DNA of 64,000 nt from NCBI GenBank assembly GCA_002010065.2, contig MTMD02000011.1, forward strand, positions 5,117-69,116, given 5' to 3'. The DNA is from Candidatus Pyrohabitans jungbluthii. GTDB lineage: Archaea; Hydrothermarchaeota; Hydrothermarchaeia; Hydrothermarchaeales; BMS3B. Shown piece after piece: positions 30,722 through 37,486 of this stretch (position 1 is the stretch's first letter; each line of letters begins with the position of its first letter). Position numbers and translations under genes: made by a program. The notes below the pieces were generated by a model. That model had not been told where the DNA came from, searched no databases, and saw only the letters and a list, made by a program, of their open reading frames with translations.

Positions 30722-30760
30722 AAATATATAAATAAGTGTTAAGTAAAACCCTATATATAC
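30722..30760 (+). promoter_or_regulatory. Tandem TATA-like elements ahead of the signalling island
   Basis: AAATATATAAATA (30722-30734) and CTATATATAC (30751-30760) stand upstream of the gene at 30793, between it and the divergent S3Ae gene. Either could serve as its promoter. The second would start transcription close to 30780. Confidence 0.5.
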
Positions 30761-30792: not shown

Positions 30793-31347
30793 ATGGAAGA
30801 TTCCACTGAAAATGCGGCTGTTCAAGCCTGCGAGGTGAGGAAGAAAACTCAGTGGCGTGTTTTTTGGGCGCTTGTGATTCTTGTAGTGGGTCTTGTCCTA
30901 TTTATGCCGGTGAAGCTTATAACAACTGAGCGGGGCTACCCTGCTTTGTGGTTCATTGCCTACACAGCATTTGCGATTTCAGCCTTCATAGTTCTTGGCG
31001 GGCTTATAATGAAAAAGCGCTGCCTGCCTGCGGTTCCACCTCCTTTTATTAAGAGCGTGAGTGAGGTGGAACAACCTTTACCTGGCGATGTCGAAGTGGA
31101 GCTTTCACCTGAGGATAGGGAACTCCTTTACAGCATAAAGGAGCTTATTAACTGGTTTGAAGAGGAAAAAATCAGGAAAGCAAGGTACCACGATTACCGT
31201 GCTCGCGTTGCCGAACTTGAGCGCTGGTTGAGGATGGGTATAAAGAAGGACATCGAGATAAGAAATCTCAGAAAGGAACTAAAGCAGCTTAAGGAGGAGC
31301 TTGAGAGGGTGAGGGCAGCCCACAATGAAGGTAGAGAAACTTCTTGA
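30793..31347 (+). CDS. Two-TM coiled-coil protein, paralog A of the signalling island
   Basis: 184-residue protein of unknown family. Two TM helices (WRVFWALVILVVGLVLFM and LWFIAYTAFAISAFIVLGGL) with a short outside loop are followed by a cytosolic tail. The tail has SPEDRELLYSIKELINWF, VAELERWLRMGIKKDIEIRN and a coiled coil. The same plan and motifs occur in the gene at 36184, and the ELERW segment matches the C-terminal linker of the globin sensor next door. ATG 30793 is preferred because GGTGAGG lies just before it; ATG 30778 is an alternative. The stop overlaps the sensor gene by 23 bases. Confidence 0.75.
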   Translation: MEDSTENAAVQACEVRKKTQWRVFWALVILVVGLVLFMPVKLITTERGYPALWFIAYTAFAISAFIVLGGLIMKKRCLPAVPPPFIKSVSEVEQPLPGDVEVELSPEDRELLYSIKELINWFEEEKIRKARYHDYRARVAELERWLRMGIKKDIEIRNLRKELKQLKEELERVRAAHNEGRETS

Positions 31348-32356
31348 AAAAGACTGGGAGACTCTTAAAAGCTACCTTGAAATCACTAGAGAGGATGAAA
31401 AGAGGCTGGAGAAAATAGGTGAGGTGCTGCTCAGGCAACATAAGGAGATACTCGATCTTTTTTATGAGCACCTCTTGAGCTTCGACGAGACATCGCGTTT
31501 TTTCCCCAGGGAGGTGAGCGTAGAGAAGGTTAAACTCAAGCAGATGGAATACTTCAAGAGACTGACTCAGGGCAACTACGACTTGGAATACCTTAGGGAT
31601 AGAACCAGAGTTGGCATAGCCCACGACCGCATCACCTTGCCTGCGCGTTGGTACCTTGGCGCCTACAGGAAGTACCTGGAGCTGCTGATGCCCCAGATAT
31701 GTAAAGCTCTGTTTCCGGGCAGTGAAAAGGTGCTCCATTATATTGAGAGCCTGCTGAAGGTGATCTTCCTCGACATGGTTGTTGCGATAGAGACCTACAT
31801 CGCTCTGCGCGAAGGCAAGCTGCAGGAAAGCAGGGAGCACTTCAAGAGGATATTCGAAGGCGCAAACGATGCTATATTCCTCATCCGCACCGATTATGTA
31901 ATAGAGGATGCAAATCCCGCCGCACTAAAATTGCTGAAGCTTGACAGAAGCGACGTGGTGGGAAAGAAATGTTATGAGATTATCCACGGGAGTAAGAGCA
32001 TGTGCACTCAGGTGCCATGCACAATTAAAGAGGTGCTGGAGAAGGGTGAGGTGCATGGAGTTATACACAAACATTACGACTGCGATGGCAATGCAATAAC
32101 CGTCGAGATATCCGCCTCAGGGATAAGGGACAGCGAGGGCAACATAGTAAAAGTGGTTGAGTCTGCAAGGGATATAACTCCGAGGGAGATGGTGAGGAAG
32201 GAACTTGAAAAGCACATCGCCGAGCTTGAGCGCTGGCAAAAGATGACCGTGGAAAGGGAATTGAGGATGGTTGAGCTTAAGGAGGAGAACCGCAGGTTAA
32301 GAGAGGAGCTGAACAGGCTGAAGAAGCTGTGTGCCAATATAGAAGGGGATGAGTAG
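31325..32356 (+). CDS. Protoglobin-PAS sensor protein without kinase domain
   Basis: 343 residues. Residues 1-165 are a globin-coupled-sensor/protoglobin domain: the proximal heme His is His100 in RVGIAHDRITLPARWYLGAYRKYLEL. Residues 172-286 are a PAS domain with three Cys (C216, C227, C232). Residues 290-335 form a coiled coil with ELERWQKMTVERELRMVELK, the linker usually found before archaeal histidine-kinase domains. No kinase or output domain follows. It overlaps the next gene, a kinase, by eight bases, so it probably senses oxygen, CO or NO via heme and passes the signal to that partner. Confidence 0.88.
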   Translation: MKVEKLLEKDWETLKSYLEITREDEKRLEKIGEVLLRQHKEILDLFYEHLLSFDETSRFFPREVSVEKVKLKQMEYFKRLTQGNYDLEYLRDRTRVGIAHDRITLPARWYLGAYRKYLELLMPQICKALFPGSEKVLHYIESLLKVIFLDMVVAIETYIALREGKLQESREHFKRIFEGANDAIFLIRTDYVIEDANPAALKLLKLDRSDVVGKKCYEIIHGSKSMCTQVPCTIKEVLEKGEVHGVIHKHYDCDGNAITVEISASGIRDSEGNIVKVVESARDITPREMVRKELEKHIAELERWQKMTVERELRMVELKEENRRLREELNRLKKLCANIEGDE

Positions 32357-34379
32357 CACGCCGACCCAGAGAAGAAGTACCGAAAAGGAGATTCTTAAAA
32401 GGATGTACGCCACCCTGAGCGGGATAAACCATGCGATTATCCATGCGAAGACGCGAGAAGAACTCTTCGAGGAGGCGTGCAGAGTAGCGGTTGAAAAGGG
32501 CAGGTTCAGGATGGCATGGATTGGCGTGGTAGAGGGAAGCGTGGTCAAGCCGGTTGCAGTGCGTGGACATGTGGCTGGTTACCTTGACAAAGTAAAAATT
32601 TCTTTAGAAGCTGTGTCTTCAGGGAGAGAACCTACGGGAAGGGCGATAAAGGAAGGCAGGATAGTTATAAACCCGGACACCAGAACCAACCCCGAGGTGG
32701 GGCCATGGAGGGAGGAGATGCTCAAGCGGGGCTATCTCTCCTCTGCGGCTATCCCTCTCAGGGAGGGGGACAGGGTAATAGGCGCTTTCAACCTCTATGC
32801 CTCTGAGCCTGGTTTTTTCGATGAGGAAGAGGTTGCCCTGGTTGAGCAGCTCGCCCAGGACATATCCTTTGGTCTGGACCATATTAAAAAGCTGGAGGAG
32901 CTCAGGGAAAGCGAATTAAGGTACAGAATGCTGGTGGAAACCTCACCCTTCGCTGTGGTACTCTTCTCTGAAGGCAGGATTGTATATGCCAATCCGGCGG
33001 CAGTGAAGCTTGCGGAGGCATCGAGTTTGGAGGAGCTTCTGGACAAGCATGTGCTTGAGTTTGTACTCCCCAAATATCATTCCCTTGTTCAGGAGAGAAT
33101 CAAGCGGGTGGGAAGGGGTGAGATTGCCCCTCCTGCGGAGATGGAGCTACTAACGCTGAGGGGCAATGTTGTTGTGGCTGAGGTGATGGGTTCGCCTGTA
33201 ATCTACCAGGGAAAGCCTGCGATTCAGTTAGTTATCCGCGACATCACCGAACACAAAAAGGCGGAGGAGAGGATTAAGGAGCTATCCCAGTTTCCTGAGA
33301 AGAACCCAAATCCAATTTTCAGGGTGAGAAAAGACGGCGAAATTCTGTACCACAACCCAGGGGTGTTTAACTATGTCAGCGACGCCAAGGATGTCAGGAA
33401 CCTCCTGCCCCCCAACTACGAAGAGCTGGTGAGAAGGGCATGTGACTCAGGAGAGGAAATCAGAGCAGAGCACAGGTTCGGAGACAGGTACATCGATTAC
33501 ATCATTTTACCTGTTTCTAAAACAGTGGCTCATATTTATGGGAGGGATATAACCGAGAAGAAGCGAGCCGAAGAGGAGCTAAAGAGGTATGCGGAGGAGC
33601 TTGAGAAGAGCCAGAAGGCTCTTCTGAACATACTCGAAGATGAGCGTGAGGCAAGGGAGAAATTGGAGAAGGCTTATGGGGAACTCAAGACGCTGGATAC
33701 GCTGAAGGATGACATCATCGCCAACGTGAGCCACGAACTTCGCACTCCGATGACCATAGCCAAGGGTTTTGCGGAACTCGCCCTAGATGAGCAGAATGAA
33801 GAGGAACGCAAAAAAGAGCTTATGAAGATACTCGAGGCACTTGAAAAGCAGAACGCAATAATAGGCGACCTCATTGCCATGGCAGAAGCATCCAAAGAAA
33901 AGCTTAAGCTTCGCAGTTCCCACTTCTCCATTAAAGATTTAATTTCGCATGCCATTGTGGAGAAAAAGAAGGACATATCCAAGAAGGGCATTAAACTGGA
34001 GCTTCAGGTGGAAGATTTTGATGTTAAGGGAGATTTCGACAAACTCAAGCATGCGCTTATAAATCTCATAGACAACGCCATAAAGTTTAACCGTCCGCAG
34101 GGTAAAATATTAATAAAAGCCCGAAAGGGGAAGAACAGTGCAATTATCTCGGTGAGCGACACGGGTATAGGGATACCTGAGAACCTCTTACCAAAGATCT
34201 TTGAGCCTCTCTTCCAGGGTGATGCCTCCATAAAGCGCAAGTATGGAGGCACGGGAATGGGGCTTGCAGTGGTAAGAACCATAGTCGAGGCACATGGCGG
34301 TGAAGTTTATGCGGAGAGCACCCCTGGTGAGGGTTCAACATTTACACTGGTGCTCCCTTTGGGGGCTGGAGGTGGATGA
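32349..34379 (+). CDS. GAF-PAS-PAS sensor histidine kinase
   Basis: 676-residue soluble kinase with no TM segments. The GAF domain spans about residues 15-185 (FRMAWIGVVEGSVVKPVAV to ALVEQLAQDISFGLDHI). PAS1 is about 190-305, and a more degenerate PAS2 about 310-400. A coiled coil is followed by HisKA with phospho-acceptor His462 in NVSHELRTPMT. HATPase_c follows, with N box NLIDNAIKF, G1 box VSDTGIGIP and G2 box GGTGMGLAV. The overlap with the globin sensor suggests a two-protein sensing unit, and the receiver at 34382 is the likely phosphate acceptor. Confidence 0.93.
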   Translation: MSSTPTQRRSTEKEILKRMYATLSGINHAIIHAKTREELFEEACRVAVEKGRFRMAWIGVVEGSVVKPVAVRGHVAGYLDKVKISLEAVSSGREPTGRAIKEGRIVINPDTRTNPEVGPWREEMLKRGYLSSAAIPLREGDRVIGAFNLYASEPGFFDEEEVALVEQLAQDISFGLDHIKKLEELRESELRYRMLVETSPFAVVLFSEGRIVYANPAAVKLAEASSLEELLDKHVLEFVLPKYHSLVQERIKRVGRGEIAPPAEMELLTLRGNVVVAEVMGSPVIYQGKPAIQLVIRDITEHKKAEERIKELSQFPEKNPNPIFRVRKDGEILYHNPGVFNYVSDAKDVRNLLPPNYEELVRRACDSGEEIRAEHRFGDRYIDYIILPVSKTVAHIYGRDITEKKRAEEELKRYAEELEKSQKALLNILEDEREAREKLEKAYGELKTLDTLKDDIIANVSHELRTPMTIAKGFAELALDEQNEEERKKELMKILEALEKQNAIIGDLIAMAEASKEKLKLRSSHFSIKDLISHAIVEKKKDISKKGIKLELQVEDFDVKGDFDKLKHALINLIDNAIKFNRPQGKILIKARKGKNSAIISVSDTGIGIPENLLPKIFEPLFQGDASIKRKYGGTGMGLAVVRTIVEAHGGEVYAESTPGEGSTFTLVLPLGAGGG

Positions 34380-34381
34380 AA

Positions 34382-34750
34382 ATGCCAAAGGTTCTGGTGG
34401 TGGATGACGAGCGTGACATGCTGAGGCTCGTAAAGAATATACTTAGTGGAGAGTTTGAGGTAATTGAGGCTGAGAGTGGAGAGAAAGCCCTGAAGCTTGT
34501 AGAAAAGGAGATGCCTGACATAATCCTTCTCGACATAATGATGCCGGGCATGGACGGGTGGGATTTTCTGGAGAAGTTCCGCAGGCTCGAAGGCGCGGAG
34601 CGTGTGCCTGTGATAATGTTCACTATACGCAGTGAAGCCAGCGAGGTGCTCTCAGGCATGGCTGTGGAGGGTGTGGTGGACTACATAACAAAGCCCTTTG
34701 ACCCTGAAGACCTTAAGATGCGCATTAGGCGGGCGATAAAAAATGAGTGA
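34382..34750 (+). CDS. Response regulator, receiver domain only (CheY-like)
   Basis: 122 residues forming one receiver domain. The acidic pair is in VLVVDDERDM, the phospho-acceptor is Asp51 in IILLDIMMPGMDG, the conserved Thr is in IMFTIRSEA, and the Lys is in YITKPFDPEDL. There is no DNA-binding output domain, so it must act by protein contact. ATG 34382 is preferred to ATG 34376 because GGAGGTG at 34368-34374 is spaced seven bases from it. The end overlaps the ATPase gene by eight bases, which hints that the ATPase is its target. Confidence 0.93.
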   Translation: MPKVLVVDDERDMLRLVKNILSGEFEVIEAESGEKALKLVEKEMPDIILLDIMMPGMDGWDFLEKFRRLEGAERVPVIMFTIRSEASEVLSGMAVEGVVDYITKPFDPEDLKMRIRRAIKNE

Positions 34751-36206
34751 TATTGAGTCGCGGGTAGTTACTGTGGGAAACAGATATTTCTACAAGATTG
34801 AATTTCCCACCCTCACGCCTAAAGAGATGAAGTTTCTGAAGAAGGTGAAAGAGGCAGCGATAAAGGAGGCGAGGGTTGATCTGCAAGGTTTAACGAAGGA
34901 GCAGATGAAGCAGCGCATGCTATTCGCAGTGCTTGAGATAATGGACAGGCTTAATGGCGACCTGGAGCTCTCGCCAGAGAAGAGGCAAAAGCTTGCGGAG
35001 CTTATTGTCAATGACATGGTGGGCTACGGCTTGCTAGAACCCATTCTCGAAGACGACGAGATTGAGGAGATAATGGTAATTGGCCCCAAGCGCCCGGTGT
35101 ATGTGTTTCACAGGAAGTACGGAATGCTTGAAACGAACGTGGTTTTCCAAGATCCCAGGGAGATTGTGAACATCGTACAGCGAATAGCTTCCAGCATTGG
35201 CAGGCGCATAGACGCATCTTCGCCTCTCCTGGATGCTCGTCTTCCAGACGGCTCCCGCGTCAACGCCACTCTAAGCCCACCCGCCCTTGATGGACCAACA
35301 GTAACCATAAGGAAGTTCAAAAAGGATCCGCTCACGATAGTTGACCTGCTGAAGTTCAACACCCTCAATAGCGAGGTCGCAGCCTTTTTGTGGCTCATGG
35401 TCGAGGGGATGGGGGTATGGCCTAAGAACATCCTTGTGGCTGGCGGCACCGGAAGCGGAAAAACCACTACTCTAAACGCCCTTGCAATTTTCATCCGCGA
35501 GCGCGAGCGCGTTATTACCATTGAAGATACCGCAGAGCTTCAGCTTCCAATAAAGCATCTCATAAGGTTTGAGGTACGCCCCCCGAGCATAGAGGGGAAG
35601 GGCGAGATAGACATGGACACCCTGCTTAAAAACACGCTGCGAATGCGCCCCGATAGAATAATCATAGGCGAGGTCCGTGGAAGTGAGGCAAAAACGCTTT
35701 TCACAGCCATGAACACTGGGCACAACGGCACCCTAGCGACGCTTCATGCAAACAGCGCGAGAGAATGCATTACGCGCTTGACAAATGAACCCATGGGTGT
35801 TCCAATGATAATGATTCCTGCACTGGATTTGATTGTGATGCAGGCGAGGTACGCCCATGAAAAGAAAGGGTTAATAAGAAGAGTAACAGAGGTAACAGAG
35901 GTTGGTGGGATTACTGACAGTACCGTGGCTCTCAGCAAAATTTACGAGTGGGACCCGGGCAGTGATGTTATAAGGAGCACTGGCACGCCAAGCACGCTGA
36001 AGCAGGAGCTTGCCAAGCAGGTTGGCATCTCCATAGAGGAGGTGAATGAAGAGTTTGAGAAGAGGAGGCTTGTTCTGGATTACCTGCTTGAAAACAACAT
36101 TAGGGAGATTTACGAGGTGCGCAGGTGGGTGGAGAGCTATTACACCAACCCTGAGGCCACGCTGAAGAAGATTGAGGAATCCCTTAAGGCTTCGACTCGC
36201 TCATAG
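34743..36206 (+). CDS. Type II/IV secretion-system ATPase (archaeal GspE/TadA/FlaI superfamily)
   Basis: 487-residue secretion/pilus ATPase. An N-terminal helical domain (about 20-110) is followed by the NTD-like segment with RIDASSPLLDARLPDGSRVNA. The Walker A motif is GGTGSGKTTT, with Lys240. Next come the Asp box ITIEDTAELQLP, Walker B RIIIGEVRGSEA and the His box GHNGTLATLHANS. Such ATPases normally sit beside an FlaJ/TadC membrane gene and pilins, none of which is nearby. Instead it is coupled to a response regulator. The last 23 bases overlap the end of the convergent paralog B gene. Confidence 0.92.
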   Translation: MSDIESRVVTVGNRYFYKIEFPTLTPKEMKFLKKVKEAAIKEARVDLQGLTKEQMKQRMLFAVLEIMDRLNGDLELSPEKRQKLAELIVNDMVGYGLLEPILEDDEIEEIMVIGPKRPVYVFHRKYGMLETNVVFQDPREIVNIVQRIASSIGRRIDASSPLLDARLPDGSRVNATLSPPALDGPTVTIRKFKKDPLTIVDLLKFNTLNSEVAAFLWLMVEGMGVWPKNILVAGGTGSGKTTTLNALAIFIRERERVITIEDTAELQLPIKHLIRFEVRPPSIEGKGEIDMDTLLKNTLRMRPDRIIIGEVRGSEAKTLFTAMNTGHNGTLATLHANSARECITRLTNEPMGVPMIMIPALDLIVMQARYAHEKKGLIRRVTEVTEVGGITDSTVALSKIYEWDPGSDVIRSTGTPSTLKQELAKQVGISIEEVNEEFEKRRLVLDYLLENNIREIYEVRRWVESYYTNPEATLKKIEESLKASTRS

Positions 36207-36744
36207 ACTTCGACTCGTGCTTCTTACTAAGCTCCCTTACCTTTCTTTTCAGGTTGCGTATTGTTATGTCCTTGCTTATCCCCAGTCTGTACCACCGCTC
36301 TATCTCTTTAATCCTCTCCTGTGGATTTCTGAGTCGAATTTCCTTTATCAACGCCTCCCGATACCAGCGCTCAAGCTCCTTTAGGCTTTCCAGAAGTTCT
36401 TGGTCTTCCGGGTCGAGCCTAATCTTCTCGTATCCATTCCCTGCGGCTCTCTTTTCTAGGTCCTCTATCTGCTTTCTTACATTGTAGAGGGATTCTCCTG
36501 CGATGTGCATGTGACTTCTTACCATACCTCCGTAAAGTAGAAATGTTCCAAAAGCAATGGCGGTGTAGACAACAAACCAGGTTTTAACCTCACCCCCTGC
36601 TATTACGGCATCGAGGGGTAGAAGGAGCAAAAGTCCTATAAAGATTGCTACATTCAGCCAGAAAATTCGCCATATAATCTTTTTCTTTCTTTCCACTCTT
36701 CTTAGCTCTTTTTCAAGTATAAGTTCTGCTGCATCTTCACCCAT
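36184..36744 (-). CDS. Two-TM coiled-coil protein, paralog B of the signalling island
   Basis: 186-residue counterpart of the gene at 30793. An N-terminal charged helix (MGEDAAELILEKELRRVERKK) precedes two TM helices (FWLNVAIFIGLLLLLPL and WFVVYTAIAFGTFLLYGGM). The tail has DPEDQELLESLKELERWYRE and then EIERWYRLGISKDITIRN, two copies of one ERWYR linker-like motif. Function unknown; a membrane relay for the neighbouring sensors is a reasonable guess. The start at 36744 is chosen over a frame beginning seven codons upstream. Confidence 0.75.
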   Translation of the reverse strand: MGEDAAELILEKELRRVERKKKIIWRIFWLNVAIFIGLLLLLPLDAVIAGGEVKTWFVVYTAIAFGTFLLYGGMVRSHMHIAGESLYNVRKQIEDLEKRAAGNGYEKIRLDPEDQELLESLKELERWYREALIKEIRLRNPQERIKEIERWYRLGISKDITIRNLKRKVRELSKKHESKSMSESKP

Positions 36745-36889: not shown

Positions 36890-37486
36890 ATGAGAGTGGT
36901 GCGCGCTGTTGGGGTTCTCAATCTTCTGCTGGGCTTGGTGGCGCTTTTAGCTCCGGTTAAGTTTTACTCCTTTGCGATGCGTCTCTTTACGCCAGACGTC
37001 TCTCCGCCCTTTGGTGTTGGTGCAATCCGCCTGACCACCTTTATGCTCTTTATTCCCAGCTTGGTGCTAATAGCCAACGGCGTTGCACTGCTTTTCTTGA
37101 GCTACAGACTTGAAACTCCTGCTAAGACCGCTTCACCCGCAACGCAGGAGTATTTGAGAAGGTTGAGGAAAGAGGAAGGTTTAGAGCCTGGCGAAGCTGA
37201 GAAGGATTTTGAGCTCTTTGAAGGAGAAGCGAGGGAGGAGCTTGAGGAGACCCCGGGCTATGCACTCTCCCAAGGCGAGGAGTACGTGAAGGTCAGGCAC
37301 GAGATGATAGGGAAGGAAGTATACGACAGAAGGGGCAACTACTACGGCAAGGTTGTGAGCGTTACCCTGAGCGAGGAGGGCGATGTGAAGGAGTTTCTGG
37401 TCAAGCGTGGTGAAAGGAAAAAGGTTTTCAGTGGTGAAGACATAGAGAGCAACAATGGTGTGATTCTGGTTAGGCGTCAGGAGTAG
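36890..37486 (+). CDS. Membrane protein with C-terminal PRC-barrel domain
   Basis: 198 residues. Two TM helices lie near residues 6-28 and 50-72, a charged Glu-rich linker spans 78-130, and a PRC-barrel-like beta domain spans about 135-198 (MIGKEVYDRRGNYYGKVVSVTL, then FSGEDIESNNGVILVRRQE). PRC barrels bind RNA or act as assembly modules at membranes. Function unknown. The shared upstream operator suggests regulation together with paralog B of the signalling island. Confidence 0.75.
   Translation: MRVVRAVGVLNLLLGLVALLAPVKFYSFAMRLFTPDVSPPFGVGAIRLTTFMLFIPSLVLIANGVALLFLSYRLETPAKTASPATQEYLRRLRKEEGLEPGEAEKDFELFEGEAREELEETPGYALSQGEEYVKVRHEMIGKEVYDRRGNYYGKVVSVTLSEEGDVKEFLVKRGERKKVFSGEDIESNNGVILVRRQE

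Follow-up and report, generated by a model that had tools for sequence, protein, structure and literature searches.

The receiver and ATPase genes of an overlapping archaeal gene cluster form a conserved core with exchangeable sensors, because this output pair changes slowly, the input genes change fast, and the pair stands alone in another genus. The best explanation of the whole, to which we give an even chance, is an auxiliary motor ATPase that acts in trans on a type IV pilus and is switched by a phosphorelay via the receiver. The window (the whole stretch of 64,000 nucleotides that was analysed) is part of contig C11; the genome comprises 1.99 Mb in 15 contigs and is 99.95% complete. The closest public records to it are Candidatus Pyrohabitans sp. 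JdFR-17 and Hydrothermarchaeota or Euryarchaeota MAGs; the host group consists of hot-vent archaea, a genus within Hydrothermarchaeota. We refer to the source genome as G000, to the other genomes of the same genus as G001-G004, and to a genome of another genus in the same family as G006. Five genes, g1-g5, overlap or almost touch behind one TATA-like element, as follows:

30722..30740, + strand: AT-rich, TATA-box-like element upstream of g1, a putative promoter (sequence and upstream alignment)
30793..31347, + strand: g1, putative membrane anchor; two hydrophobic segments, long coiled-coil helix at the C-terminus (ORF, paralog search)
31325..32356, + strand: g2, protoglobin, PAS, and C-terminal coil (Pfam, PDB alignment)
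32349..34379, + strand: g3, histidine kinase, GAF-PAS-(PAS-like)-HisKA-HATPase, phosphoacceptor His462 (Pfam, motifs)
34376..34750, + strand: g4, single-domain receiver with D10, D11, D53, and K106 kept (Pfam)
34743..36206, + strand: g5, platform-less secretion/pilus-type ATPase (Pfam, motifs, tree)
36184..36744, - strand: g6, convergent g1 paralog outside the core (paralog search, gene-order comparison)

The tight packing of five genes claimed in the preliminary description agrees with the ORF coordinates, which give the overlaps as 23, 8, and 8 bases. Two starts are possible for the receiver, one at 34376, where ATGA forms a 4-base overlap with the kinase stop and the phospho-Asp is D53, and one at 34382, two bases past the kinase, with Asp51 as the phospho-Asp. 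The domains named earlier were also recognized by Pfam, except for the second PAS of the kinase, which has no Pfam match. The g1-g5 order, mostly with overlaps, is the same in 5/5 available genomes of the genus and is thus not unique to this contig, as the proposed check of gene-order conservation had asked; the packing is not due to chance, because the order is identical in the four other genomes. Similar TATA-like elements lie 5' of g1 in all five (upstream alignment). Position 36744, the end of the interval first described, is the start of g6, which overlaps the 3' end of the ATPase gene; g6 is found in G001 and G004 and is missing between the ATPase and PRC genes in G002 and G003. A membrane PRC-barrel protein, encoded at 36890-37486 of the window, is the conserved next downstream gene in 5/5 genomes of the genus.

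The identities to G001, G004, G003, and G002 are 77, 65, 52, and 52% for g1; 76, 59, 42, and 41% for g2; 87, 67, 52, and 48% for g3; 83, 86, 73, and 71% for the receiver g4; and 89, 90, 83, and 81% for the ATPase g5, and the flanking genes range between 73 and 97% in the same comparison (G001-G004). By these values, g4 and g5 change at about the slow pace of the adjoining housekeeping genes, and the input genes change fast. With 124 amino acids and a receiver domain alone, g4 is a CheY-like single-domain response regulator (D10, D11, D53, K106), and its region RSEASEVLSGxAVEGVxDYITKPFD is kept as far as G006 and is not kept in the three other receivers aligned. In G006, the genes of the receiver (65% identity) and the ATPase (61% identity) lie 2 bp apart with a TATA-like sequence upstream, sensor genes are absent beside them, and the flanking genes are different. 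The tie between receiver and ATPase that had been claimed from gene order is borne out, since a second genus has kept the pair in the absence of the sensors.

We counted receivers around 68 distinct ATPase loci with usable flanks, in all six frames. In the g5 clade, 6/6 loci have a receiver no more than 1.5 kb from the ATPase, compared with 0/62 other ATPase loci; L012, L013, and L014, which are the same contigs as G004, G001, and G003, were counted once, and the G003 receiver, overlapped by a longer false ORF, was found in the six-frame count. The G006 pair and the background of 0/62 rule out a chance adjacency. The six loci are related by descent, so the six adjacencies represent retention, not independent gains, and could go back to a single event in an ancestor, inherited within one family. 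In another genus of this family (labelled g2, not to be confused with the gene), the platform-less orphan ATPase has no match, and the genus keeps a fused pilus ATPase. It is very probable that g4 and g5 function together, and a putative direct regulatory contact between them is fairly probable.

The g1 protein has no family match in Pfam or NCBIfam. Its paralog family counts five members in the source genome, and this genus alone (5/5 genomes) has full-length relatives. The structure model has low confidence (mean pLDDT 68.7, pTM 0.31) and supports only a helical hairpin and a coil. The C-terminal coil of g2 resembles the g1 coil (E about 3e-5), and it is plausible that g1 anchors the sensors via coiled-coil contact. 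Two other g1 paralogs adjoin a GAF-domain protein, which is kinase-like in relatives, and in G000, G001, G002, and G004 another is flanked by ArlCE and CheD within the archaellum-chemotaxis cluster. This last position ties the g1 membrane family to motility and, together with the 29 receiver matches in the source genome, which offer many possible partners, fits a reading without any action of the receiver on the ATPase: the kinase and receiver would feed another target, such as the archaellum-chemotaxis machinery, and the ATPase would be a co-regulated passenger. However, G006 keeps g4-g5 alone, with the other genes of the unit lost (or not yet gained) and different flanks, and we consider such a passenger very unlikely. 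The g1-family membrane coiled-coil gene that follows CheD overlaps the ArlCE gene by ~11 bases (L093:9941-10555, L116, L121, L122) and may be a component of the archaellum-chemotaxis system that has gone unrecognised in this genus.

The protoglobin domain of g2 was matched by Pfam with an E of 1.2e-34, and its His100 aligns with the heme-ligand His of sensor globins (PDB 2w31). With this domain and this residue, g2 has the sequence characteristics of a globin-coupled sensor and is a putative heme binder. The preliminary description took heme-gas sensing as the input of the system, so that heme-sensed O2, CO, or NO would control the ATPase via phosphorelay. Along with the aligned His100, a full Protoglobin match in G000, G001, and G004 (Pfam) is consistent with this idea, and the phylum has been reported with CO oxidation potential and motility genes (PMC6775978). 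However, Pfam detects no Protoglobin in the G002 g2 and only a partial match in G003, yet the receiver and ATPase persist in both, and no globin sensor lies beside the G006 pair. The globin part also changes fastest within g2: its identity drops to about 28% in both G003 and G002, against 60-68% for the C-terminal coil. The claimed input is thus unconserved among the genomes of the genus, for which reason gas sensing was rejected as the core function; that it is the point of the system is unlikely. Gas sensing by g2 in the source genome is possible and would not be a conserved property of the unit. A second protoglobin match in the source genome lies at G000:C1:33382-33840 (L160) in an open frame of 303 residues. 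In the kinase g3, the H-box and the ATP-binding boxes are kept, and the G004 kinase is without most of the first PAS.

The ATPase g5 scores 174.1 bits against T2SSE (PF00437; cut-off 24.9), which makes it a member of the secretion ATPase superfamily, and carries Walker A at 234, the Asp box at 259, Walker B at 304, and the His box at 326; across nine orphan ATPase sequences, these catalytic boxes are intact and do not vary. The nearest solved structures are those of CpaF (8rkd, 9e24), archaeal GspE (2oap), and FlaI (4ii7). The identity of archaellum motor FlaI was rejected (NCBIfam NF058587, 329.1 bits vs. a cut-off of 550; FlaI-type genes lie on C6), as was that of a PilT/PilU retraction ATPase by family (TIGR01420, 66.7 bits vs. 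a cut-off of 319.1), although g5 might have a PilT-like role despite this sub-cut-off score. An operonic archaeal type IV pilus ATPase was also rejected, the linked TadC/T2SSF platform gene being absent. In our tree, g5 and its genus orthologs group with those of G006 and G008 and with the single ATPases of G012, G017, and G021, apart from the fused pilus ATPases, with moderate support (93/89) for the union of the two orphan groups. The tree was preferred over a profile search, because the profile alignment already contained the orphans, which biases the score gap. The g5 lineage is made up of platform-less ATPases with a single domain, which occur in this class alone.

The only platform genes in the source genome are two T2SSF genes on C2 and one FlaJ on C6. 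At the C2 locus, the two T2SSF genes stand next to two class III pilin-like genes and the gene of a protein whose 1084 residues include two ATPase domains; at the C6 locus, FlaJ is accompanied by FlaH and two FlaI-type genes. The membrane partner said to be missing is indeed missing near the cluster, but the cell has these three elsewhere, where the suggested search for a FlaJ-like gene located them, each with its own ATPases. No g5-specific platform protein was found in the source genome, and with no platform of its own, g5 most likely acts in trans. The tandem double pilus-ATPase protein of C2 (L047:10061-13315) has relatives in most genomes of the class; its NCBIfam FlaI call lies above the cut-off (670.7 vs. 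550 bits), with a score that apparently adds up the two domains. On C6 (L049:9809-13125), the two tandem FlaI-type ATPases, of 541 and 564 aa, lie between FlaH and the one FlaJ.

The sister orphans of g5 have other neighbours. In G012, G017, and G021, the orphan ATPase adjoins an orthologous KaiC-like gene (3/3; 57-68% mutually identical), which has no match in ten genomes of family f1 (E 1e-40), and the G021 orphan is additionally preceded by a membrane histidine kinase. In a separate orphan lineage (G014, G018, G019), another KaiC-domain gene adjoins, also in 3/3. KaiC-like proteins are related to FlaH, the archaellum motor partner. By gene neighbourhood, the receiver in this family takes the place held elsewhere by a KaiC-like regulator, and it may have functionally replaced it. 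The orphan ATPases at L063:6194-7393, L069:2685-3920, and L070:925-2136 have an overlapping gene upstream, whose product joins a KaiC domain to an uncharacterised N-terminal domain of ~150 residues. L048:4145-5581 (G000 C7) and L073-L077 belong to a second family of orphan secretion ATPases; the C7-type ATPase overlaps a clamp-loader small subunit gene in several genomes of the same family, often with an ArsR-like gene near. It was considered as a parallel case and rejected, as it adjoins the clamp-loader gene and no signalling or pilus genes are adjacent.

These surroundings also bear on whether the orphan ATPase is still a pilus motor, the main rival reading being that it has become a cytosolic hexamer in signalling or remodelling, gated by the receiver or, in the sister families, by KaiC-like ATPases. 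No TadC or pilin gene adjoins any of the nine orphan loci inspected, a regulatory neighbour is present at 9/9, and the N-terminal extension of 45-200 extra residues seen in 14/14 pilus-type relatives sampled is reduced to 30 residues or fewer in the orphans. However, the catalytic boxes are invariant and the body is 53-61% identical across the orphan lineage and, for g5, 56-58% identical to its nearest paralogs, the two ATPase halves of C2, which suggests that the mechanical job is unchanged; in addition, archaeal ATPase/TadC modules reportedly serve different pilin sets (PMC4858521). We regard the non-pilus role as somewhat unlikely. The C2 pilus is favoured by sequence as the machine that g5 would drive, and the chance that a pilus is the target of g5 is slightly less than even.

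A phosphorelay ending in the control of g5 is the simplest reading of the unit, a two-component pathway that would have a motor-type ATPase, not a gene, as its output. The inputs (the membrane anchor g1, the globin-PAS protein g2, and the GAF-PAS kinase g3) would set the phosphorylation of g4 by phosphotransfer from g3, and g4 would then bind hexameric g5 and switch its activity or recruitment. In trans, g5 would assist the TadC-type pilus machine of another contig as an extra, an alternative, or a retraction motor. More tentatively, and with considerable doubt, the orphan ATPases could be distinct plug-in motors, an archaeal answer to the missing PilT, whose docking on the pilus a cytosolic regulator would have to allow; this regulator would have been exchanged from lineage to lineage, being a two-component receiver in one family and a KaiC-like ATPase in the others.

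Receiver control of pilus-type ATPases is already known in bacteria. In Xanthomonas oryzae pv. oryzicola, the single-domain receiver EmvR binds PilB and represses its ATPase (PMC11973254), the closest precedent for a receiver that, below a histidine kinase, acts on a T4P-type ATPase by contact, as g4 putatively does. However, that system is bacterial, EmvR is an orphan receiver, and PilB is the pilus motor, whereas g4-g5 is archaeal, its receiver and ATPase genes overlap, and the platform gene is not nearby. In the Pil-Chp system of Pseudomonas aeruginosa, the CheY-like receivers PilG and PilH act on the extension ATPase PilB, with PilG controlling PilB localisation (PMC12632253), but the signal comes from a CheA-type chemosensory array and the effect is mainly on localisation. 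NmpRSTU of Myxococcus xanthus also places a protoglobin sensor in a multi-component pathway, a kinase pathway that influences type IV pilus motility through transcription (PMC6211767); its output is an NtrC-like transcription factor, whereas the g1-g5 unit has no DNA-binding output. Compared with the archaeal T4P secretion ATPases (PMC4858521 clades), such as the fused double ATPase of C2, g5 shares its identity over the two-domain body and the intact motifs but has no linked TadC or pilins and no N-terminal extension, and a receiver adjoins instead. KaiC-family ATPases are linked to archaeal T4P loci (PMC4858521), and there, as in archaellum FlaH-FlaI and the sister orphans, a regulatory partner adjoins the motor ATPase; in the case of g5, this partner is a phospho-receiver. 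In the literature searched, we found no report of an archaeal receiver whose gene is locked to that of a platform-less secretion ATPase, and term searches found no mention of secretion or FlaI in the 2018 archaeal two-component census or of receivers or CheY in the 2016 archaeal T4P census.

According to the 2018 census, most archaeal stand-alone receivers lie in no conserved gene neighbourhood (PMC5847659), hence their targets are not inferable; for one such receiver, a fixed place beside an ATPase in different genera offers a definite target that can be tested. PilT is absent from archaea, and at least one archaeon still retracts its pili by unknown means (PMC11178785); among the candidate kinds of answer is a second motor ATPase that is regulated and has no platform of its own. 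The change between a receiver and a KaiC-like partner in sister families, if true, would show how pilus-type motors gain new control.
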